A DNA stretch of 25,703 bases, taken from positions 1 through 25,703 of IMG/VR virus record IMGVR_UViG_3300025135_000020; one strand, written 5' to 3'. Position numbers and translations under genes: made by a program. The number at the start of each line of letters is the position of its first letter. Positions within the stretch are counted from its first letter, which is position 1. The notes beneath the pieces are model-generated. The model did no database searches. It saw only the letters and a program-made list of their open reading frames with translations, and was not told where the DNA came from. Origin of the DNA: a virus. Shown piece by piece: positions 1,355-25,085 of this stretch.

Positions 1355-4300
1355 GCGCTACTCGCTTGATTTGTCGTTGTGTTTCTCTGTCCGTACGAAT
1401 AACATCAACCGTGATGTCTTTCAACTCTTTATTTCCAACGTACACTTTAACAATCGTATCCCCACCGCCCATCATTGAACGAGTATCTGTATTATTGAAT
1501 ACTTGCGCGGGTTGATTAAATCTGACCAATTCTGGCCCTTGCTCTCCGACCATTGCCCAGCCTGGAGAAGCAAACCCACCTCTTTCAAATTTAGCAGTTC
1601 TGCCGTCTAATTGCCCAGCGTATCTAAAATGCTTAATTAATTCATCCCAAGAAAGCGTAGCAGCTTGTCCAATCCAGTATTGCAATCCTTGACTATCTGG
1701 ACTGATCCCAAACATATCCCTGTATAATTTAGTAACCTTGTTACTTAATGCTTCATGTTCTTTCGCACCGGGAGTCTGTATCCAATCATGGTACTCTTGT
1801 GCTCCAGGAACATTTGTACGCCAATTATCAAACAATACTTCGCTTGATGTTTTTCCAGTGCCAGCAGTAATTTGATCTACAAGCGAACCGCCCCCCTGAT
1901 TCGAAATAAACTCAAGCTGGGCGTTTATCCTATTCAATTCATAATACAGATCAGCAAGAGACTTTCCTTCAGTCGCACTGTTTTGTAGATCATACAAATC
2001 CTTGAGCACATCGCCAGTAGCATTCTTGCTTCCCCCAAATCCCTGGAAGAAGTCCAAATACTGACTGGCGAAACTGGTAAAATCTGAAATCCTATCGGGA
2101 TCATTCTTTGCTGCTGTAAGTAATTCTTGATACCTGAGTTCAAACCATTCTGCCGATTGCACAGGAGCATGTCCCCCGCCCATAATTGAGTCAATCAAGG
2201 ATTGAATCACATTATGATTCTGGATCATCTTGTTCAAATTGGTTTGCTGCTTCTGTAAATCCTTTGACTGATCAGTTAATTCTTTTGCAGCCTGTTTCAG
2301 CCCCCACATCTGCCACAACAAATCTTGCAGTGGTTTGGAAGCATCTCCGTAAGCATCCTGTAAAGCAGCTAAATCCAACAAATGTTCTTGGTATTCTATA
2401 TCAAGTGCAAGTTTGGTATCTCCTATCATTTCAGCCCATTGTTTCTGGATACTCATTTCTTTTTTCCAAAAATCAAACTGGCTTTCAGCCAAATCAATAA
2501 TCTCTTTTCGTGCTTTGGCTTCATCTTCCAAGCTGTTTACCAACCGCTGCAATACTTTCTCACTTTCCTCCATTTCATTAATTTCTGCTTCCCGCATCTC
2601 AGTCAAAACTCTCGCAGCAAAAGCAGCATCTTCAGTGGCTTTTGCCATTTGCTCCCAGTAGCGCAGATGTTTGGTATCTACAGTCCCGCTTGTGCCCAGC
2701 CAATTCTCGAAACCGGGAATGTACGGATTGTCCCCAAATCGTCCCCCACCGGCCATGCCCCGCAAGCCGAGCATCCGCGCCGTCTCAGTGGCGTTGTGAA
2801 CATATCCAGCCCCGTCCATCTTGACTATCTCCGGGCCTTCTTCGCCAACCAGATACATATTCCCGCGAGAGACGGGACCGCCGGATGCGCGGGCAGATAT
2901 ACTAGACAATGAGGATGCACTTCTGAGAGCACCTACCGCACTGCTAATCGCCCCTGTCGCTTGTCCAGCATCCCTAGCCATGTCGCGCAATGTGCGAGAG
3001 AGCATATCCACACTGCTTTCAGCATCCTCGCTGCGTGTCGTGGTCAAAGCCAGAGCATCTTGCATATCCAACAAACGCTGGGCATGTTCAGCAAGAAATC
3101 CACTACCTTCAGCAGTAATCATGGAATGGCTTGCTGTGGCGTTAATCAATCCCAAAGTAGCCATTTCAGCCTGGACATGCTGTGCGGCAAGTTCAGCAAC
3201 GGCAGTGGTAGATAGTCCAGTTTCTTCCGCATAATTGGAAATGGCCTGTGCCAATCTATCCGTATCTGCCCCTGCAATATTGATTGCGCTGATAAATTCA
3301 CTTGAAATCGTATCATTGAACGCCATCATTTCTTCACCGAAAGCCGCTAGATTGTCCGCTGATCCGGTAAAATTCGCTATGGCATTGTTCACTTCTTCAT
3401 TCAAAATCCCATATGCTTGAACCCACTGTCCGGTAAATTCCGCAAGATGTGCTGCCTGTTCTTCCGTCAACCGATGATAGGCTTCTTGAGTTACCGCCTC
3501 ATTATCCGACCAATATTCGTTCCATGTCATTCTCAGCGTTCCCAAAGCCTCTCTTGCTTCTTCAGGCAACGCTTTCATGTTCTCGCCAATAACCATACCC
3601 ATCACGGCGAACTTATCAGAAATCGCCTGACCACCAGCAGCAAAATTCTCCATCGCACCAGCTTGCATGGTGGTCATCTCATTGCCCATTTGATCCAAAA
3701 CCGAAATAGCTTCAAATGATCCGTGTCGGTAAATATTGACAAGCGTATCAGACAAATCGGTTGTGACGTGGGACATCTGTTCCAGCATCCCCGACCATCG
3801 AGCCATTATCTCATGCTCATAATGCTCGAACTCCCCGTAACCTTGCAGTCCGGCTCCAAGCGTGCCGATTGCGCCACCTGTCGGGATGTGCCGCTGCATC
3901 ATTTCTGCAAAAGCAATAAAAGTACCAAAAGCAGCGCCTAAAGGTCCACTCGCCAATGAGAACATAGCTGTTGCCGCTCCAGCCCCAGCCTGATCACCAT
4001 CTTTTGCCAGCAACATAGAAGCAAAACCGCCAAGAGCAGACGCTCCTATTTGTAAAGAAGACAATCCACTCTGATTCCATCCTGCTCCTGAATAATTTGG
4101 ATCATTTAATGCTTGGTGCATTTCCCGAGTAGTATTCATGGAGCTACCGAGATTTTTAGCTGATTCAGCCGCCGCTCCGGTAACTTCCCCCATCTTTTCT
4201 ACTACTTTTGCAGTATATCCGAGTTTTTCCGCTAATTCTTCAAATCCTAATTTATATGCAGCATATCCTAAAACTTTTCCTCCTAAGCCCAAAATACCCA

Positions 4301-7300
4301 TACTGCTTTCACTGTCTGTTGCTTTGTCTTCAACAGCTTCAGCACCTTTCCCAGTAGCCCAACCAACTAAAGCATTTCCAATTGAACCACCAACAGATTG
4401 CCCAATTGAACCAATAATCGGTTTAATGAATATTTCCAGTACAGCTATTTTCGCCCACTCAACAAGAAGTTGAGCGACCATATCTGTAAATGACCTGACT
4501 AAAGAATCAAGAAATGATTTCCAATAATTCTTGAATTGTTCTCCATACTCTTTCTTTTTATCGTAATATTCATCTTCAATAGTTCTACGTTTTTCATCAT
4601 AGGCTTTATCAATTTCTTCTAATTTCTTAGCTAATTCTTCTTGATTTTCTATTGTTTCGTGTGCATTTGTAATTTCCTTTTGTTTCTCTTCTTCCATTCT
4701 AGAAATAGCATCTTTATAGTCTTTCTCTATGATTTTTTTCTTCTGATCAGATTCCCAAACAGCCCAATACAAAGAATCTTGAGCTAGAGATTTAGTACTG
4801 GATTCAATCGAAGAAACAAATGTCTTAACAATATCATAATACTTGGCCCAAGCTGCTCTCTTTCGATCTAGAGTTGTTTCCAAAGCCCCTAAATCTTTAG
4901 CAAGACTTAAACGCCAGTATTCAGACCACGAAGAAGCATTTGCTATTTGATCATTCAAATAATCCTGATTAAGTTTTTTGATTTGATCTATGCGATCTTT
5001 TTCTTTTTGAAGTAAAAGTTCCTTTAATCTGTCAACAGCCTCTAAATTTCCTCTTTCTTGTTCCCAAGCAATTTGAGTTTGAATAATATATTTTTCAGCA
5101 GTATGTGTTAATTCATCAAAATAATACTTGTTTTGTTTAAGTAATTTTTGAGTAGCTTCAAATCCTTTCACTTCTTCAAAGGAATTTAAAATAGACCAAA
5201 GTTTTGCGCCAGATTCCCCACTCGCTTCTAACTTTTGACGTAATTCCTCAACATCATCCAAAAATATTCTTGGCATTCCTGCTTTGAATTTCTCCATATC
5301 AAGAAATTCAGAACTTAATTTGAATGCTTCTTTATTTATTTCTTCAAGAGTTTTATGAAATTCTTTTAATGCAGCTTCGGCAGCTTTCGCCGCTTCCATA
5401 TTCTCAAGTTTCTGTCTAATTTCTTCTAAAACATAAGCGTACTCATGTCCTGACATAGCTGCTAAATAAGCACTAACCGCCCATTTATCAAATTCTTTAT
5501 CTAATTCAATTGCTTTAACTTCCGCAGCATTCCCCATTAATTTATGAAATTCTAATGTAGAAGCTTGCAATTCTTTATTTAATTTGGCCAGATACTCCCG
5601 TTCTCTAATTTCTTTTAATTCTTTAACAAATGGCTCTACTCCATCCATTTTAGCCGTTTTAAATTGCTCTATAACATCCGCAATTTCTTTCGCAAGTTTT
5701 AAGTCAAATACTTTACGGGTCTCCCCACGCATTTCCGCAAGAGAAACTGCTAAAGCATGTTGAGCAGCTTCTTGTTTTTTTAATTCAGCGGTATAATCTT
5801 TTGTAGTTGCAGTAGAATCTTTAGTTACTTTGGCAAAAGCATCTGCATATATCTGTGCCTTAGCTAATTCCATATTCAAAGGTTCCATTGCTTGTCCAGA
5901 AGCAGCAACTTCCTCTTCAAATTCCGCAACAGCTTTTTGTGCCCCTTGAATAGCACTAATCACAGCTACCATTCGTAAAGCATCACCAGAAGCAATTGCT
6001 TTATTTAATTCAACATTCAATCCAGCAGCTTTTCCAATAAGTACTTTTCCTTCAGCATCAACTTGATCTGAAATCAAAGATAAATTCGTAACAAATTCTT
6101 GATAATTAGTTACGTCAATTGGTTGTGTAAAACGCGCTACTAAATCAGGAATGTCAATACCTATTTTTAATAATTCAGTGCGCAAAACTTCTGCTTGCTC
6201 TCCCATCATCCTCATTACAGCAGCAGTTGCTTCCGCACCTTCTTCATACGTATTTGTAATTGTAATTAACTCTTTACTGACATTTTTATTCCAATCACGC
6301 ACAACAGCATACATACTGTCTTTTTGTGCATCACTAAGTTCATCAAAAAATTTACGAATTTCCGGAGGAATTGTTTGTCTTTTTACAACAACAACATTTT
6401 CTAATTTATTTAAAGCATTGTATATTAACTCTACCCATTCATCTAAATGTTCAGATGAAACAGCACCAGATCGTATCAAAACATCTCTAATTGTATCTAT
6501 CGAATCTCCAAATTCAATGCCAAATCTTTTAGCAACGTTTAAAGCGTTATATAAAATCGCTTCTTGCTGAATACGAGCTTGTTCTAATTTTTGATTTACC
6601 TCATCCAATTGTTTTTGAGTAGCTGCTCCAACTCCCAATTCACGATCTTCAGCAAGCATTCCTTCAGATGCCCTTTTCTGAAAATCTAATTTAGTTATTT
6701 TAGTATCTAGTTCAGTATAGGCAGCAATCAAAGAGCGTAACGCCTCTTCATTTTTTGCCATAGCTGCACTAAGTAACGCTTCATTTAAATCATCAAAACT
6801 ATCCCGTGCATTTAAAACAACAGAAGCTAATTCAGGATATTGTTGGATCATTCGTTCTAAAATATGATTATACCCCTGTCCCTTTTTATGGGCTTCTTCA
6901 ATCTGTTTTCTAAAATCTTCAATTCCATCCGCTTGTTCTTGAGCAGCTTCAGCAGATTCCTTGAGTGTTTGAATCGTATCTTCAACACTATCCTTAAAAT
7001 GAGAATAAGCAGTCGTAACCGCCGCAATAGCTCCCATTAGCCATAAAAATGGATGAGCTTTAATTAATGTAAATAAACCTGACGTAACTAATGTTAATTT
7101 AGCAGTTATTCCAGAAGTTGCCCCAAGAGTAGTAGCATATCCAATAAAAGCTACACGAAGTTTATCAATCCCATTTTTTAATGCATTTATTGTGAGTAAA
7201 TTAAAAAAAGCCCCACCATATGTAGTAGTCTTTATTGCTTTGATTGCTAACCCTAACGCTCCAAAAGCAAGAGTCGTGGTTGTAACCGCAAATAATAATT

Positions 7301-16365: not shown

Positions 16366-17112
16366 TTACCTCAATATATAATGGCGTCCATTATTCCCGC
16401 CGTCAAGAGTCATACCCATCCGAGTCAAAACGGTAGCATTAATGTTTTCAATAACATCCTCATAAAGAACGGCATTGCTCACGACAACCGAAGCCAAAGC
16501 ACCATTAAGAGTAACGGTGTCCTCACCCTCGCCAGTATCAATATCCTGATCGAGAATATAGAAAGTAGAGTTGTCAAGAGCAGTCGTATCGTCGGCAGCA
16601 GCGCCAGTACGGTGCATCAAACAAGCACCCTGAGCAGTCGTAAACTGAGCAGAAGTGATATTCGCCGTCATGGTGATAAGAGCAGTAGTTCCAGTGCGAT
16701 TAATTGTAAGAATCGTGCATCGCTCCCAAACACCAGCACCGTTATTGCTATAAAGAATGCAAGTATCACCAACAGCAAAACGATAAGAATCACTGAGACT
16801 GATCCGACAAGTGGCATCCCCTGCACCACCAGCCGCATTAGCGGTCAAATAAGATTTACCGATAGGCGAATGATCCGTAGTAGTGGTAAACGCAGCAAAA
16901 GGCACGACACGATCATCACCAGCAAGAACAGCCATTACCGTTCCGACATCCAAATGTCCGAATCCACCCCTGACAGTTTTTTCAAGCAGCAAGGCACTTT
17001 CTCGCCGAGAGAAAAACAAACGCTTTTTTACAGTGCGGGTCATCCCGGTCAAATTGACCTGGGGAACAGCGCCCCCGAGACCAGCAGTGGTTTTCCCGAT
17101 TCCGATAGGCAT
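16366..17112 (-). CDS. Probable capsid decoration protein, lambda gpD-like place, 248 aa
   Basis: This beta-rich protein has many Gly, Ala and Thr residues, with GFGHLDVGTVMAVL at about 50-63 (compare the 'G-T-V-L-A' strand of decoration proteins). A middle part, GDTCILYSNNGAGVWERCTIL, looks like an inserted barrel. The end is VLTRMGMTLDGGNNGRHYILR. It stands between scaffold and capsid genes, where lambda has gpD. It is about twice gpD length, so the middle is probably an insertion. The antisense strand has an open frame of the same length, which I regard as a shadow. Codons are GC-richer, as in the capsid gene. Confidence 0.6.
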   Translation of the reverse strand: MPIGIGKTTAGLGGAVPQVNLTGMTRTVKKRLFFSRRESALLLEKTVRGGFGHLDVGTVMAVLAGDDRVVPFAAFTTTTDHSPIGKSYLTANAAGGAGDATCRISLSDSYRFAVGDTCILYSNNGAGVWERCTILTINRTGTTALITMTANITSAQFTTAQGACLMHRTGAAADDTTALDNSTFYILDQDIDTGEGEDTVTLNGALASVVVSNAVLYEDVIENINATVLTRMGMTLDGGNNGRHYILR

Positions 17113-17140
17113 AATCTATCCTCCTAATTTCCGTAAATTG

Positions 17141-19977: not shown

Positions 19978-21855
19978 TTATAATCCATATGTTAAACGAC
20001 GCTCATCTGGGATAAAATTTCCAAAAAATGAATTCCCTCCCCTATCCTTAAAATCATCCACACCTAACTCTCTTCCCCCATAAATAGTCCACCCTAAAGC
20101 ATAAATAGAATCATCTTGTACCCCTTTATTATCCCCCTTTTGAGGACTTCCATACCATTTGGTAGGTGGATGATAATCAAACATTGACAATTCTTCTGAC
20201 AAAATATTTTCAGATTGAGAACCGGGTACAATAATGTGTGGAGATTTGAAACGTCCATCCTGTAAAATTAAATACAATTCAGAAAATGCCTTTTTCTGTA
20301 ACATGTAAGTAGGAAATACCGGCTCAAATTTAATTTCATTTTCTTCACACCAAGGAGCCAAATCCCAAGTGCCCCATCGTTCAGAACATAACGAATCAAT
20401 TCCATCATATTCATTAACTGCTTCTCTAAGTTCTCGTTTAATTGATTCTAATGTAGCATCTTCAACCCATGCTAAATGTAACAATAAATAAATGTATTCA
20501 TTAATATCTACTGGTTTAGGAACGTAATTTGGATTAGCACTTCCCATCAATCCTTTTGCAACTACTGTTAAAATAGTTCTCGCCATTGGGTCACGCGCCA
20601 TTGGGTCTGATCTATCCAATCCAGCTAAAATTCCCCATTTAGTTTGATAAATTCTGCCCAATTTTTTTAATTCAGTATGTGTAGCTAACTTAGGCATTGA
20701 AATTGTATGAAGTTTATAATAGTCATCCATTGGAATTAATTTACGATGTAATTCTATAATTTTCTGTTCATACACTTCCCTTTTATTTTTACGTGTTCTT
20801 TTTCTTTGATCTGCTGACTGATTTTTTCTAAAATCAGTATTATCAATCTTCACTTGATAATTCTGAATATCCTCACAAATACTTTTAACCGTTCCATCAT
20901 CTATTTTAATCTCATTATTATCTTTAAATCCAAAATAATAAATTGATTTAACAACTGATTCTGTAAATAATTTACCACCTTCCAATTCCCAAACATTTTT
21001 AAAATAACGATCAAAATCAGCAGGAGGGAACTTCCTTTTATAGGAATCCAACTGCGCTTTATCCATTAAAGGATGCCAATATTCATCTGGAGTCGCATTT
21101 GGAGCACTTCGATAACTAAAATAAGTCAAACGATCATTTTCTTCTTTAGCTCCTTTATAGAGCCGATATAACACATGATCTTTTGTGGATACTGTGCTGT
21201 CAATAGTCCCTAGTGCATTAATAATGTTACGTACAGAACCATCCAATTGCACAAAAAATTTAGGGTCTTTCATGTCAAACATTTCTGAAAACGTATATCC
21301 AGTGATATTTGAAACAATACCACTGTATGTTGATATAGGCTGAAAAGAAGAAATAACTTCTCCTTTAGAATTTTTAAGAAAAGTTTGTCCTCTTTGAATA
21401 TTTACTTTTCCAATGACATTTACCAATTTTGGACTATTCAGAAGTACATTTTGAATCATTTCATAATGTACAAATTTAGTTTGATCTTTTGACAATGCTC
21501 CAAACACTATTTGCTGTCTTGGAAAACAAAAAAACTTCCATAATTGTATTAAACATACCATAAATGATTTGCCCTCACCTCGCGGCCAGCAAAAAACAAT
21601 CAATCTATGTACAAATCTCCCATTTCTCATTTCAAGAGCTTCACGAAAAACAACTTTTTGATTTTCCCACATTTGTTTGAATGATTTTCCAGTCCCAGGA
21701 TCAGGATCAGCACTTAGATCACATGGGTATATCCATTTAGGAACAGGACTATTTGCTTGTGGAACAGCAAAACGCACATTTTCTTCAACAAATGCAATAA
21801 ATCCATCCGCCCCACTTTGGTAAAAAGGAATACGTGAAAAATCCATTTTGTCCAT
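19978..21855 (-). CDS. Terminase large subunit (packaging ATPase and nuclease), 625 aa
   Basis: The motor that packages DNA. Walker A is WPRGEGKS at 90-97. A Walker B-like acidic strand is TGYTFSEMFD at 186-194. A coupling-like ALGTIDSTVS follows at about 214. The RNase H-like nuclease begins with GILAGLDRSDP at ~405-415 (first Asp), has SLCSERWGTWDLAPW in the middle and ends with VQDDSIYALGW (~575), carrying the last Asp pair. A 'DPGTGKS' at 52-58 resembles a P-loop but is outside the expected position. Length is normal. The first nuclease motif carries a tandem five-residue repeat. The start is 3 bp after the small-subunit-like gene, with GAGGA as SD. Confidence 0.92.
   Translation of the reverse strand: MDKMDFSRIPFYQSGADGFIAFVEENVRFAVPQANSPVPKWIYPCDLSADPDPGTGKSFKQMWENQKVVFREALEMRNGRFVHRLIVFCWPRGEGKSFMVCLIQLWKFFCFPRQQIVFGALSKDQTKFVHYEMIQNVLLNSPKLVNVIGKVNIQRGQTFLKNSKGEVISSFQPISTYSGIVSNITGYTFSEMFDMKDPKFFVQLDGSVRNIINALGTIDSTVSTKDHVLYRLYKGAKEENDRLTYFSYRSAPNATPDEYWHPLMDKAQLDSYKRKFPPADFDRYFKNVWELEGGKLFTESVVKSIYYFGFKDNNEIKIDDGTVKSICEDIQNYQVKIDNTDFRKNQSADQRKRTRKNKREVYEQKIIELHRKLIPMDDYYKLHTISMPKLATHTELKKLGRIYQTKWGILAGLDRSDPMARDPMARTILTVVAKGLMGSANPNYVPKPVDINEYIYLLLHLAWVEDATLESIKRELREAVNEYDGIDSLCSERWGTWDLAPWCEENEIKFEPVFPTYMLQKKAFSELYLILQDGRFKSPHIIVPGSQSENILSEELSMFDYHPPTKWYGSPQKGDNKGVQDDSIYALGWTIYGGRELGVDDFKDRGGNSFFGNFIPDERRLTYGL
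20581..20607. repeat. 15-bp-period tandem duplication in the terminase nuclease motif
   Basis: CGCCATTGGGTC occurs at 20581-20592 and again at 20596-20607, a 15-bp period. It encodes DPMAR twice in the phrase LDRSDPMARDPMART, next to the first catalytic Asp of the nuclease. Twelve of 15 bases are identical between copies, so the duplication looks fairly recent. Confidence 0.75.
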
Positions 21856-21858
21856 AAA

Positions 21859-22773
21859 CTATTTCCTCACTTCTGTATTGGGCCTTTCTCCAACATCTCT
21901 CAATCCGGCTCTTTGTAATGGACTCAATACCCTGACAGTTATTTTGGGTTCTTTTTTCCTTTTACGTTTCCTTTTAGTAGATTTTTTTAGAACTTTAGGA
22001 GTTTGTTTTCGTTTATTTGTATCAAAAAGTGTATTATATTGCTCTATTTCATCTACAGGAATTCCATCCTCACTAATTTCGTCTTCATTTTTGTCATACT
22101 GATCCCCATCAAAATCAATTCCCGAGCCTTTTTCGTCACTAACTGTTATATTATTATCATCGTTATTTTTAGGATTATCATTCACGCAGTATAAAGCATC
22201 TAAAAACGCATCATCTCCAATTTCTGATGGACTTTTTTCCATCTTGATTCCACTTCCAATATCCCTCCAGACCCCATGAATAGTTTTAATGATTTCTCGT
22301 ATCTCTTTATACACAGGATTGATTTTGCTATCTCCACGGGCAGAATAAACCATCACATCATTATTTCCGAATTCATACAACTTGAATTTGAACAATTGAG
22401 CGTACAGAGGAATCAGAGAAAATCCAAACTTAATCACATCCTCATGTTCATTTCTCTTGTCTTTTTTCATTTTGCGAGCAAATGCGAACATCACATTTCT
22501 TATATAGCGCATTTGCATAACGCATTTATCCGTTCTTCCAGCTTTTCCCAATCCCTCTTTCCCTTCTTTCATTGTCCATTTTCGTACATATGTACAACGA
22601 TCATACACAACGCACTTTTCGTATTCACAGGGAACAGCAAAATCCCATGCTACAAGATAAAAATCATTGACTCCATTCGTATTCCAACTTCCTTTCTCCA
22701 ATCGTACCTGTCCAACTCGATTCCTCAAATCTCCAATTGCAGGAAGTCCATTTCCTTGAGCATTATGTGACAT
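21859..22773 (-). CDS. Probable terminase small subunit with Cys cluster, 304 aa
   Basis: The gene lies 3 bp upstream of the large terminase gene. Residues ~49-60 have C-x4-C-x5-C (PCEYEKCVVYDRCTY), with a fourth Cys about 25 residues on (DKCVMQMRY), suggesting a metal site. A helical part follows (IRNVMFAFARKMKKDKR). The segment KINPVYKEIREIIKTIHGVWRDIG recalls the C-terminal pattern of P27-like small terminases. The last ~110 residues are a long acidic, Asn/Asp-rich stretch followed by a very basic end (KKSTKRKRKRKKE), as expected for a disordered, DNA- or motor-binding tail. The assignment is mainly from synteny. A different DNA-binding protein is possible. Confidence 0.5.
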   Translation of the reverse strand: MSHNAQGNGLPAIGDLRNRVGQVRLEKGSWNTNGVNDFYLVAWDFAVPCEYEKCVVYDRCTYVRKWTMKEGKEGLGKAGRTDKCVMQMRYIRNVMFAFARKMKKDKRNEHEDVIKFGFSLIPLYAQLFKFKLYEFGNNDVMVYSARGDSKINPVYKEIREIIKTIHGVWRDIGSGIKMEKSPSEIGDDAFLDALYCVNDNPKNNDDNNITVSDEKGSGIDFDGDQYDKNEDEISEDGIPVDEIEQYNTLFDTNKRKQTPKVLKKSTKRKRKRKKEPKITVRVLSPLQRAGLRDVGERPNTEVRK

Positions 22774-22802: not shown

Positions 22803-23183
22803 CTACTCAGCAGGAATCATATCTTTTCCAATCCGAGTAGAGACTGTTTTGATTTTACACACACTAGCAGGAAACAGAACAAACGCATTCCCATCCTCCC
22901 CAACAAACCTCAAATCCCAAAAACAATTCACATCCCTTCCCACATCCATCTCCATACTATCCTTCGCACTAATCGTAATCGTCAACTCCTTCTCAATAAT
23001 ATCCAATTCCAACCCACTTCCATTCTCCGTCTCTTCCTCAGTATCAATCCCAAACAAAACCCCACTCTCATTCAATTTCTCCCTAATCTGCATATAAACA
23101 TCATATCCATCCAAATCCACATCAATTCCACTCAAATCCACAACCTCCAAATAACTCCCCCCTACAACAATCTCCATATCCAT
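22803..23183 (-). CDS. Small beta-rich protein, BppU-N-like, first gene of the structural operon
   Basis: The 126-aa protein reads as an Ig-like or BppU N-terminal-like module: GGSYLEVVDLSGIDVDLDGYDVYMQIREK at the start, LTITISAKDSMEMD in the middle, CFWDLRFVGEDGNAFVLFP and KIKTVSTRIG at the end. The common phage pattern 'Y-x-V-x-M-Q-I-R', 'I-T-I-S-x-x-D', 'y-D-L-x-x-x-d-G', 'v-T-R' is followed well. Such modules usually belong to baseplate or head ornaments. The SD is TTGGAGGGG. The first 31 codons contain no C at all: Leu is TTG and Ser is AGT. C content rises towards the 3' end. No exact function can be given. Confidence 0.6.
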   Translation of the reverse strand: MDMEIVVGGSYLEVVDLSGIDVDLDGYDVYMQIREKLNESGVLFGIDTEEETENGSGLELDIIEKELTITISAKDSMEMDVGRDVNCFWDLRFVGEDGNAFVLFPASVCKIKTVSTRIGKDMIPAE

Positions 23184-23283
23184 AATACCCCTCCAATAAA
23201 AAATTTACATTTTTTTACAAAAAAACCCACAAAAATATAAAAAATTCACATAAAAATCCCTTCAAATTCATAAATAAATCAAT
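23091..23283. other. 193-base G-free tract on the plus strand (C-free leader of the leftward operon)
   Basis: Every base from 23091 to 23283 on the plus strand is A, C or T. The leftward mRNA therefore lacks C from its predicted start, through the SD and the first 31 codons. In consecutive 60-base lines from 22801, the plus strand has about 9, 5, 2, 2, 2, 0, 0 and 0 G, a clear gradient. The boundary on the right (G at 23284) is abrupt and falls in the promoter spacer. Confidence 0.9.
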
Positions 23284-23299
23284 GAATTTCATTTGTCAA
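23271..23299 (-). promoter_or_regulatory. Candidate promoter of the leftward structural operon, with palindromic spacer
   Basis: On the minus strand, a perfect TTGACA (23299-23294) is followed 17 bases on by TATTTA (23276-23271), a weak -10 box. The spacer contains AATGAA-T-TTCATT (23281-23293, plus strand), a perfect palindrome that could be a repressor site. The predicted start is near 23264, leaving an ~80-base leader before the ATG at 23183. Confidence 0.55.
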
Positions 23300-23313
23300 A
23301 AAATCAGAACATA

Positions 23314-23461
23314 ATGTCATAACTTTTAAAAATAGCTAAGAAACGTAGTGGAAACGCATATCAGTGTAATAAATTTACATAGATGATTTCAATATAGTTA
23401 AACATGTCATTTAAATCATCTAAAATGTCAATACTTTCAAAAATAGCTGAGATTTGTGGTG
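23314..23461. repeat. Two direct repeats 111 bp apart
   Basis: The blocks starting at 23314 and 23425 align over about 40 bases with roughly three quarters identity. The shared core is ATGTCA, two variable bases, ACTTT, one variable base, AAAAATAGCT, a variable base and AGA. A further ATGTCAT lies at 23404. The two copies stand between the divergent transcription units, upstream of the terminase genes. Possible roles are terminase recognition (cos/pac-like), phage-specific promoters or replication sites. I see no basis to choose. Confidence 0.7.
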
Positions 23462-23737
23462 GGTACTCTCACGTAGGTTATATACACATATTCGTGCTCA
23501 TTTGCGTAGGGGGTTGGCCTCCTACAGAGTGCACAAGGTTTGCCTCGAAAGAGGCACCCGGGCGCTTCCCAAAGGTATTGTGGGAGGCTCGAGGGAATAC
23601 AAGAGCAACCTTTATTCCTTGTCTGGGAACCTGCCTAGTTCTTTGTCATAGCGTATCGAATTAGATACTTATCCCGTAGGGGTTGCGCACAAGGTTGTTT
23701 CACTTTGCGCAACCCCCCATATAGCAACCTCCTACAA

Positions 23738-23794
23738 GGAGGAGGAGGAAAGCATATGGAGAAGGGATTAATCAGTTCGAATACAGCCCCCTAA
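23738..23794 (+). CDS. Putative 12-aa leader peptide with triple SD
   Basis: ATG at 23756 opens MEKGLISSNTAP and stops at 23794. It is preceded by GGAGGAGGAGG (23738-23748), seven bases before the ATG, as strong an SD as any in the window (the feature includes it). CCTCC at 23728 can pair with the first GGAGG and form a small hairpin over it. An isolated tiny ORF with so strong a site in a structured leader is suggestive of translation-linked control. It could also be a chance ATG after a purine-rich RNA segment. Confidence 0.35.
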   Translation, partial: GGGGKHMEKGLISSNTAP

Positions 23795-24169
23795 TCAACC
23801 CCCCCGAAAGGTGCCAAGTCCCATACATCCCTTTCCTTTCCTGTTCTTTCCTTCCTGCCTTGTGCGCTAGGAAGGAACAGGGACAAGGCAACCCCTCAAG
23901 GAATAGCAACCCTTGAGGAGTTGCCTTGGTTCCGTATACGTCAAGCTTTATATCACTTTGTTTGTTTGCGAGAACAAACAAGGAAAGTGCCCAAAGGGCA
24001 GAAACAACCCCTAGCAAGGAATTCTGCTTGAATAAGAAAGTGACAACCGACGAAAACAAGGAACAAGATACATTAAAGGACATTCCATCCGATAGGGGAA
24101 TTTGATAGGATAGATAAGGTAAAGCATACGAAACAATAAAGGTTGTCGTATGTTTTGGGCTTTGTTTAG

Positions 24170-24252
24170 GGGTTGCAAGGTGCCAGGTTGTATACTGGAA
24201 CCTTGCAACCCTTGAAAGTTTAAGGATTATGCTTTGAATTTTCAAGGGTTGC
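24170..24252 (+). promoter_or_regulatory. Two mutually exclusive hairpins before the 53-aa gene
   Basis: GGGTTGCAAGG (24170-24180) can pair perfectly with CCTTGCAACCC (24201-24211). Alternatively, 24205-24225 pairs with 24232-24252 in a 21-bp stem (13 perfect outer pairs, then three G-U among the inner ones; loop ATTATG). The shared GCAACCC (24205-24211) cannot do both. The second stem ends 33 bases before the ATG at 24286. No U-run follows either stem. The layout is like a switch or attenuator. Confidence 0.5.
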
Positions 24253-24285
24253 AATGAGGCAATCAATAAACAAAAGGAAGGATAT

Positions 24286-24447
24286 ATGAACAAGAAACAG
24301 CTTGAAAAACACATTGCACAAGAAATTGAGAGTATATTACGAATTATGTCTAATTGTAAACAAGAAACAGAACAAGGAAAAGCGGATTATCATTATTATC
24401 AAGGGCAATATCATGCTTTATTGGATATATCAAGGCATATAAAGTAA
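24286..24447 (+). CDS. Small protein of unknown function, 53 aa
   Basis: ATG at 24286 follows AAGGAAGGA, and the frame runs 53 codons to TAA at 24447. The protein begins MNKKQLEKHIAQEIESILRI and ends QYHALLDISRHIK. It is probably one or two helices, with Tyr and His in the middle (ADYHYYQGQYH). It has no signal peptide or membrane segment. It is followed 12 bp on by a strong intrinsic terminator, so it is the last gene of a transcript that may include the structured RNA. Codons are AT-rich, unlike the genes to its right. Function is not recognised. Confidence 0.7.
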   Translation: MNKKQLEKHIAQEIESILRIMSNCKQETEQGKADYHYYQGQYHALLDISRHIK

Positions 24448-24459
24448 GGTTATATCTTG

Positions 24460-24490
24460 AAAGGCGGGGCTATTTTTCCCCGCCTTTTAT
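24460..24490 (+). terminator. Intrinsic terminator after the 53-aa gene
   Basis: AAAGGCGGGG (24460-24469), an 8-base loop (CTATTTTT) and CCCCGCCTTT (24478-24487) form a 10-bp GC-rich stem that runs straight into a short T-run (CCTTTTAT). It is a classic rho-independent terminator for the rightward transcript. As A-rich sequence precedes the stem, weak action on leftward transcription is possible. Confidence 0.85.
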
Positions 24491-24536
24491 ATAGATGCAA
24501 TCTTGCATCCAACCCGCAACCCTATTGGAGGGAATT

Positions 24537-25085
24537 ATGTCTACATTTACGATGGACCAGGTAGTGGCAATGCCGGAAGAATCCATGAATAACCTAAGCA
24601 AAGCAGAATTGACAGGTATCTTGGGAGAATTGTTTGAATATCCTTCCGAGGATACGGAAGGCCCAGCACGCATGTTGCGCCGGATGCTCCGTGCAGAAAT
24701 AGGTGCCGAGGTTGCGAACCGGGCCCGGGTTGTGGCCGAGAATCGGAAGACCCGTGGCGCTGGGAAAGTGAAGGATTCCGGTCCTTTGTATACGCGACGG
24801 GCAAAGTCCATCCGTCGCGTCCTGGGCACGGACAAAACCCGCTGGGATATGGACAACCCCCCAGTATTAAACGAAAAGGGGGGAGTTGGGGCGGAGTTTG
24901 CCGACAATCTTACAGACATTGATCTAGAGACTCTCATATCAGAATTATCCTTTTGCCCAGAGGAATTTGAAGCCCGTTGGAGGTATGATAGGATTACTTC
25001 GGTACTGGGTGCCCTGTACAGGGCCGAATTGCTAGATGGAGACTTTGCCGCCCTTTTGGAAGGGTTGGCTGGGGAACTCCAGTAA
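24537..25085 (+). CDS. Unknown acidic/helical protein, 182 aa
   Basis: I place the start at 24537 (MSTFTMDQVVAMPEESM), four bases after TTGGAGGG; an in-frame ATG at 24495 lies within a small hairpin and has no SD. The protein is helical and charged: an acidic N-terminus, then LSKAELTGILGELFEYPSED and a basic middle (RMLRRMLRAEIGAEVANRARVVAENRKTRG, then TRRAKSIRRVLG). The C-terminus is acidic and Leu-rich (DIDLETLISELSFCPEEFEARW, ALYRAELLDGDFAALLEGL). There is no recognised domain. A basic middle between acidic ends could suit nucleic-acid or protein binding. The gene is clearly GC-richer than the structural operon. Its leader has ATGCA...TGCAT and GCAACC before the SD. Confidence 0.7.
   Translation: MSTFTMDQVVAMPEESMNNLSKAELTGILGELFEYPSEDTEGPARMLRRMLRAEIGAEVANRARVVAENRKTRGAGKVKDSGPLYTRRAKSIRRVLGTDKTRWDMDNPPVLNEKGGVGAEFADNLTDIDLETLISELSFCPEEFEARWRYDRITSVLGALYRAELLDGDFAALLEGLAGELQ

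Follow-up and report, generated by a model that had tools for sequence, protein, structure and literature searches.

A densely folded, ORF-free region between divergent phage operons as a probable untranslated leader with a boxA-like motif

What is the purpose of about 0.8 kb of strongly folded, apparently gene-free sequence at the terminase end of a phage genome? This question is raised by the window analysed here, a 25.7-kb virus record (25,703 nucleotides taken at full length). Its left 23 kb are encoded on the minus strand and specify proteins for the head and for packaging; at the end of this series stand the portal, the terminase large subunit TerL (19978-21855; PHROG 2, E 5e-12), a gene in the position of TerS (21859-22773), kept beside TerL in relatives and presumed from this position to be the small subunit, and a 126-aa gene (22803-23183). 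From 24286 onward the genes are on the plus strand. The leftward and rightward genes are separated by an AT-rich stretch (23184-23450) followed by ~830 nt of ORF-free structured sequence. Elsewhere in the window, a 248-aa open frame on the plus strand (16381-17127) lies antisense to a 248-aa gene on the minus strand (16366-17112).

A preliminary description had proposed that this region encodes a giant structured RNA reminiscent of GOLLD and ROOL. Few classes of giant phage RNAs have been described, and we know of no function for them. GOLLD RNAs are often longer than 800 nt and a ROOL example measures 659 nt, the functions of both being unknown (PMC12286853), and phage ICP1 produces an abundant RNA of ~800 nt (PMC7567579).

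Folding and coding potential of the region

The region does not read as protein-coding by codon signal, ribosome site or homology. The ORFs within it (86 aa on the plus strand, 180 aa on the minus strand, and others) exhibit no clear in-frame codon signal, the two long ones lack the Shine-Dalgarno site that the neighbouring genes possess, and none has a match in PHROGs or, by tblastn, in the relatives. The earlier claim of some 0.8 kb without a credible long gene is therefore borne out, and the conserved protein that had been named as grounds for abandoning the proposal was found in none of the frames.

Folding of the 851 nt from 23440 to 24290 yields -319.4 kcal/mol on the plus strand, against -242.9 +/- 6.3 for 20 dinucleotide shuffles (z -12.2, 76 kcal/mol under the shuffle mean), and a z of -10.0 on the minus strand. 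The density of hairpins is thus beyond chance, as had been suspected, and all the helices named in the preliminary description are present. When the whole window was scanned in 300-nt tiles against shuffles, the plus-strand tiles 23701 and 23851 fell 23 and 27 kcal/mol under their own shuffles, exceeding all 161 tiles outside the region (mean -3.8 +/- 5.5, lowest -21.3). On the minus strand, the tile 23701 is the lowest overall, with the coding tiles 7651 and 16201 only a few kcal/mol above it, so that excess structure alone is not unique to 23440-24290.

On the plus strand, the hairpins begin with a GAAA-capped one, TGCCTC-GAAA-GAGGCA (23541-23556), after which a small hairpin CTGGG..CCTAG (23623-23638) directly precedes a boxA-like motif, GTTCTTTGTCATAG (23638-23651, found by pattern match), and the hairpin GTATC-GAATTA-GATAC (23653-23668) directly follows it. 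Next come a GC-rich hairpin with a perfect 11-bp stem (23679-23716) and another (23717-23760) in which both a strong Shine-Dalgarno run (GGAGGAGGAGG) and an AUG are base-paired, the stretch 23672-23760 having a z of -5.1. A long hairpin (23838-23883) and one of 17-18 bp (23884-23928, 17/18 paired) lie within 23835-23945 (z -6.7), followed by hairpins at 23954-23989 and, within 24120-24262 (z -8.5), at 24120-24156, 24165-24216 and 24203-24254. The last two are partly exclusive, and that at 24203-24254 is the longest of all (20 Watson-Crick and 3 G-U pairs), located 32 nt upstream of the first gene's start codon. A putative micro-ORF of 12 codons, read from the sequence as MEKGLISSNTAP plus a stop (23756-23794), has its ribosome site and its start codon inside one hairpin, an arrangement that may provide translational control within the leader.

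Neither the window nor eight related loci matched an Rfam family at the gathering score (GOLLD, ROOL, OLE, HEARO and others), and permissive scans of the region returned chance-level matches only. Covariance models of group I and II introns, RNase P and riboswitches had no match either, and tRNA genes were found neither in the window nor in nine related loci. The class is new to Rfam, in line with the earlier remark that it was unrecognised and might be new, and the suggested likeness to GOLLD and ROOL finds no support as membership of either family. These two RNAs often occur near tRNA genes, which are not strictly required.

A conserved leader block in an undescribed phage group

Relatives of the window were found through TerL and make up a phage group to which no named phage belongs; tblastn with TerL gave no match in named phages. 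One of the relatives, L011, encodes a TerL (2304-5141, plus strand) with an intein-like insert right after Walker A (GEGK, then CQEKGSKVLMYDGT ... VTGDFTVTHN, then S), and an insert of this kind also follows Walker A in an SNF2-like helicase of the L007 phage (L128, 3805-6726, minus strand). Wherever the contigs of the relatives reach far enough, a divergent gap separates the TerS-position gene from an oppositely read small gene.

This gap holds a conserved leader block, located in the window at 23420-23532 on the plus strand. A profile built from seven relatives without the window, and then searched in it, recovered the block as the window's best match (E 1e-7), and blastn aligns it to L008 (E 1.9e-6). 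Equivalent leave-one-out profiles detected L005, L007, L008, L009, L011 and L100 at E 3e-4 to 2e-12, L098 being the weakest (0.03); L020 and L016, which are outside the alignment, also carry the block (E 0.013 and 0.018). In the 5' parts of the eight aligned gaps the layout consists of ACTTTnAAAAATA, ~10 nt, TTGTGGTGGG, ~35-45 nt and CTTTAACATAGGGGG. The last of these elements, aligned in all eight, reads TGCTCATTTGCGTAGGGGG in the window (23495-23513, plus strand) and contains an invariant AGGGG. A composite pattern of the leader retrieved only L008 and the L011 contig, plus one chance match in coding sequence.

The conserved ACTTTnAAAAATA..TTGTGGTGGG portion belongs to a promoter-like repeat (23424-23462, plus strand) ending in TTTGTGGTGG. 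An upstream copy (AATGTCATAACTTTTAAAAATAGCTAAGAAACGTAGTGG, 23313-23351, plus strand) is a 79% direct repeat of it and constitutes a weak second match of the leave-one-out profile (E 0.086), and two or more copies also occur in L008, L011 and L098. From this conservation we infer promoter function, with a transcript that would start near the repeat at 23424-23462.

Each relative with a long enough contig has a gene on the same strand downstream of the leader, and in L007 the operon behind it exceeds 19 kb. The divergent operon shared by L007 and L005 includes a gene (L007, 4135-4659, minus strand) whose start resembles a J-domain co-chaperone. The first rightward gene of the window encodes 53 aa (24286-24447, plus strand), with the Shine-Dalgarno sequence AGGAAGG and an in-frame codon signal; it matched no Pfam family at the cut-off and belongs to no known family. 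The second, of 181 aa (24540-25085, plus strand), also has a Shine-Dalgarno site and codon signal and is by position the counterpart of the small leader-adjacent gene of the relatives, to which it is 13-23% identical; a direct search for relatives of this protein gave none.

Since the conserved block sits between the TerS-like/TerL operon and the divergent operon, the likeliest reading of the region is a 5' untranslated leader belonging to the rightward operon, a giant RNA of its own being less probable. This plus-strand reading relies on the conserved block, which keeps one position and one orientation ahead of a gene, and on hairpins that reach the 53-aa gene with no terminator between them and 24286. 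The giant RNA of the preliminary description accordingly survives as a long, ORF-free, folded region at the terminase end, but hardly as an RNA standing alone, because its first ~110 nt are the conserved leader block and no terminator precedes the gene.

Variable modules behind the leader

In L011, L016, L020, L098 and L100, an ORF begins ~150 nt or less past the leader block, and there is no structured module. A structured, ORF-free insert of 350-830 nt lies between leader and first gene in the window, L007, L009 and L008, the folded stretch behind the block being ~770 nt in the window, ~700 nt in L007 and ~300 nt each in L009 and L008, with fold z values of -3.9, -4.5 and -2.6 for L007, L009 and L008, respectively. 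L005 holds a module of ~700 nt homologous to that of L007, located behind the first gene (fold z -5.0). In this pair the structure of the 3' domain (the last 200 nt) is kept, with a consensus energy z of -3.9 on the plus strand and -3.3 on the minus strand, and the independent folds agree; in the 5' and middle parts the consensus energy does not clearly stand out from shuffles. The two sequences show 15 double-changed pairs kept on the consensus fold, and structures taken from one sequence alone give kept-to-lost ratios of 11:10 and 17:8, so that their covariation is only suggestive.

For the hairpin part of the window no homologue was detected, its resemblance to the relatives being limited to short stretches shared with L009, and for this reason covarying pairs could not be demonstrated in it. 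One half of the test proposed in the preliminary description, namely poor conservation without covarying pairs, thus went against the giant RNA, while the other, a conserved protein, did not. DNA comparison of the region with phages and plasmids, and of the L007 module with phages, gave no match. Among pattern searches, CCTAGYTCTTTRTCATAG was found in IMG/VR, besides L009, only in two contigs of one unrelated phage and in a coding region; TACGCCCCGACGGCGAGCC had one match beyond L005 and L007, judged to be chance; and AGCAGGCCAGGACCCGTG occurs only in these two. The module sequences of the window, L007, L008 and L009 have almost nothing in common beyond the boxA-like unit.

That unit carries the sequence GYTCTTTRWCATAG in several modules. 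The individual forms are GTTCTTTGTCATAG in the window, GCTCTTTATCATAG in L009, GCTCTTTGACATAG in L005 and L007, and GCTCTTTTACATAG in L008. Against the published Nus boxA consensus GYTCTTTAANA (PMC5725501), which may not be that of the host, the window motif scores 9/11 and those of L005, L007, L008 and L009 score 10/11. With the E. coli rrn boxA as reference, which does not derive from the leaders and may also differ from that of the host, the best match in the modules of these four relatives beats 99% or more of shuffles, whereas the window motif alone does no better than shuffles. The 13-nt pattern CTCTTTDWCATAG appears once each in the records of the window (one mismatch), L007, L008 and L009, always in the leader region, and in the window 23638-23651 is its only match at up to one mismatch; as the pattern was derived from the same leaders, this count is partly circular. 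L011, L016, L098, L100 and L020 have the leader block and no good boxA. In both the window (CTGGG..CCTAG) and L009 (CTAGG..CCTAG) a hairpin stands directly before the motif and another after it. An exact CTCTTTTACATAG in the L020 record was discarded, being antisense inside a helicase gene, and the motif was also considered as the end of a micro-ORF (S-L-T/S-stop), a copy in the L011 leader lacking the stop.

Proposed antitermination and the competing explanations

The boxA-like GYTCTTTRWCATAG in several modules favours Nus-type antitermination of the untranslated RNA. BoxA elements precede rRNA, other long non-coding RNAs and CRISPR arrays. They assist the polymerase in traversing long untranslated RNA, array transcription having risen ~10-fold in one test (PMC7862264). 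Behind the 53-aa gene of the window, a terminator-like hairpin, AAAGGCGGGG-CTATTTTT-CCCCGCCTTT followed by TTATAT (24460-24487, plus strand; -22.7 kcal/mol, z -3.7), misses the T-run rule of the terminator scan and is hence absent from its list. As the stretch from there to the 181-aa gene contains no notable plus-strand promoter, this gene would depend on read-through. Against this, the L007 operon shows no enrichment of terminators. A long leader of the rightward operon, read from the plus strand and endowed with boxA/Nus-type antitermination, is tentatively preferred, with a probability somewhat below even, and antitermination would be the best-fitting mechanism.

In this mechanism, the promoter-like repeats at 23313-23462 would drive plus-strand transcription, the RNA polymerase starting near 23456 and transcribing in turn the conserved block of ~110 nt, the phage-specific structured module of ~650-700 nt and the genes from 24286. 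The hairpin-boxA-hairpin unit (23623-23668) would emerge near the 5' end of the module, and host Nus factors (NusB-NusE) would bind the motif in the RNA to form a termination-resistant elongation complex, able to pass the untranslated structured stretch and terminators such as that at 24460-24487 into the operon. Its stable hairpins would give the RNA its fold and shield it, and they might also serve some further role.

Such a mode of action can be likened to that of rRNA leaders and lambda nut sites, in which boxA also works; shared with these are a predicted boxA-like motif between small hairpins in untranslated RNA, a long operon behind and a terminator-like hairpin to pass. In contrast, the window motif is degenerate, neither a boxB of the lambda type nor an N-like protein was identified, and the leader has several times the length of a nut site. 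The boxA of CRISPR arrays (PMC7862264) likewise stands ahead of long untranslated RNA, but the window has no repeats or spacers. If the region is a leader with boxA-type antitermination, giant phage RNAs would become linked to the task of sustaining RNA polymerase through untranslated RNA.

A free-standing RNA in the manner of GOLLD or ROOL is a rather unlikely alternative, although one that sequence alone would not distinguish from the leader. It would share the promoter, be processed out of the leader or stop short of the genes, and build up during infection as a stable molecule or an assembly, with boxA serving only its own transcription. Its length and lack of ORFs recall GOLLD, ROOL and the ICP1 RNA, the former two also in dense structure and phage origin; the position of the L005 module behind the first gene implies that the module moves as a unit, and the structure kept in the L005/L007 3' domain fits as well. 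However, the absence of a covariance match, of neighbouring tRNA genes and of a terminator before the gene, the appearance of an mRNA leader, and modules unconserved across the group speak against it. The ICP1 RNA, like the window region, occupies an ORF-less gap of ~1 kb in a lytic phage genome with no tRNAs, but it was seen in RNA-seq (PMC7567579), whereas the window region is likened to it by description from sequence alone. An unlikely explanation is a DNA-level element, either a replication origin, a packaging site or a regulatory region, whose inverted repeats would be protein sites or cruciforms. Both strands fold far below shuffles, and GCAACC, found 7 times (GGTTGC 3 times) in 1.1 kb (23605-24521) against 2 (and 3) in the first 23.2 kb, is iteron-like and lies beside the AT-rich stretch and the terminase genes; furthermore, the strand test of G-U versus A-C mismatches in symmetric hairpins, with relatives pooled, is not significant (19:14 or 36:43) and so does not favour RNA. 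Nevertheless, these copies lie mostly in complementary hairpin arms instead of evenly spaced direct repeats, the strongest window hairpins have mainly plus-strand G-U wobbles, and the conserved block belongs to a leader, invariably followed by a gene. It is more improbable still that the module is fast-changing, largely dispensable filler without a function of its own, as its absence from five relatives and its variable sequence and length elsewhere might suggest: four other members have ORF-free folded sequence at or beside the place (z -2.6 to -5.0), the L005/L007 3' domain conserves its structure, and phages seldom retain 0.8 kb of DNA that does nothing.

Besides the preferred leader reading, the modules may represent a new kind of giant phage RNA, a doubtful proposal at present: a swappable structured module of 350-830 nt, differing from phage to phage, introduced by an rRNA-like hairpin-boxA-hairpin unit and placed behind the conserved leader or the first gene in an undescribed phage group. 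The group allows the comparison of members with and without the module. In L009 (1-1090, minus strand), the sequence GCTTTCCAACAG behind the first gene is complementary to the loop of a hairpin that precedes this gene (CTGTTGGAAAGC), which would permit a loop-loop contact.
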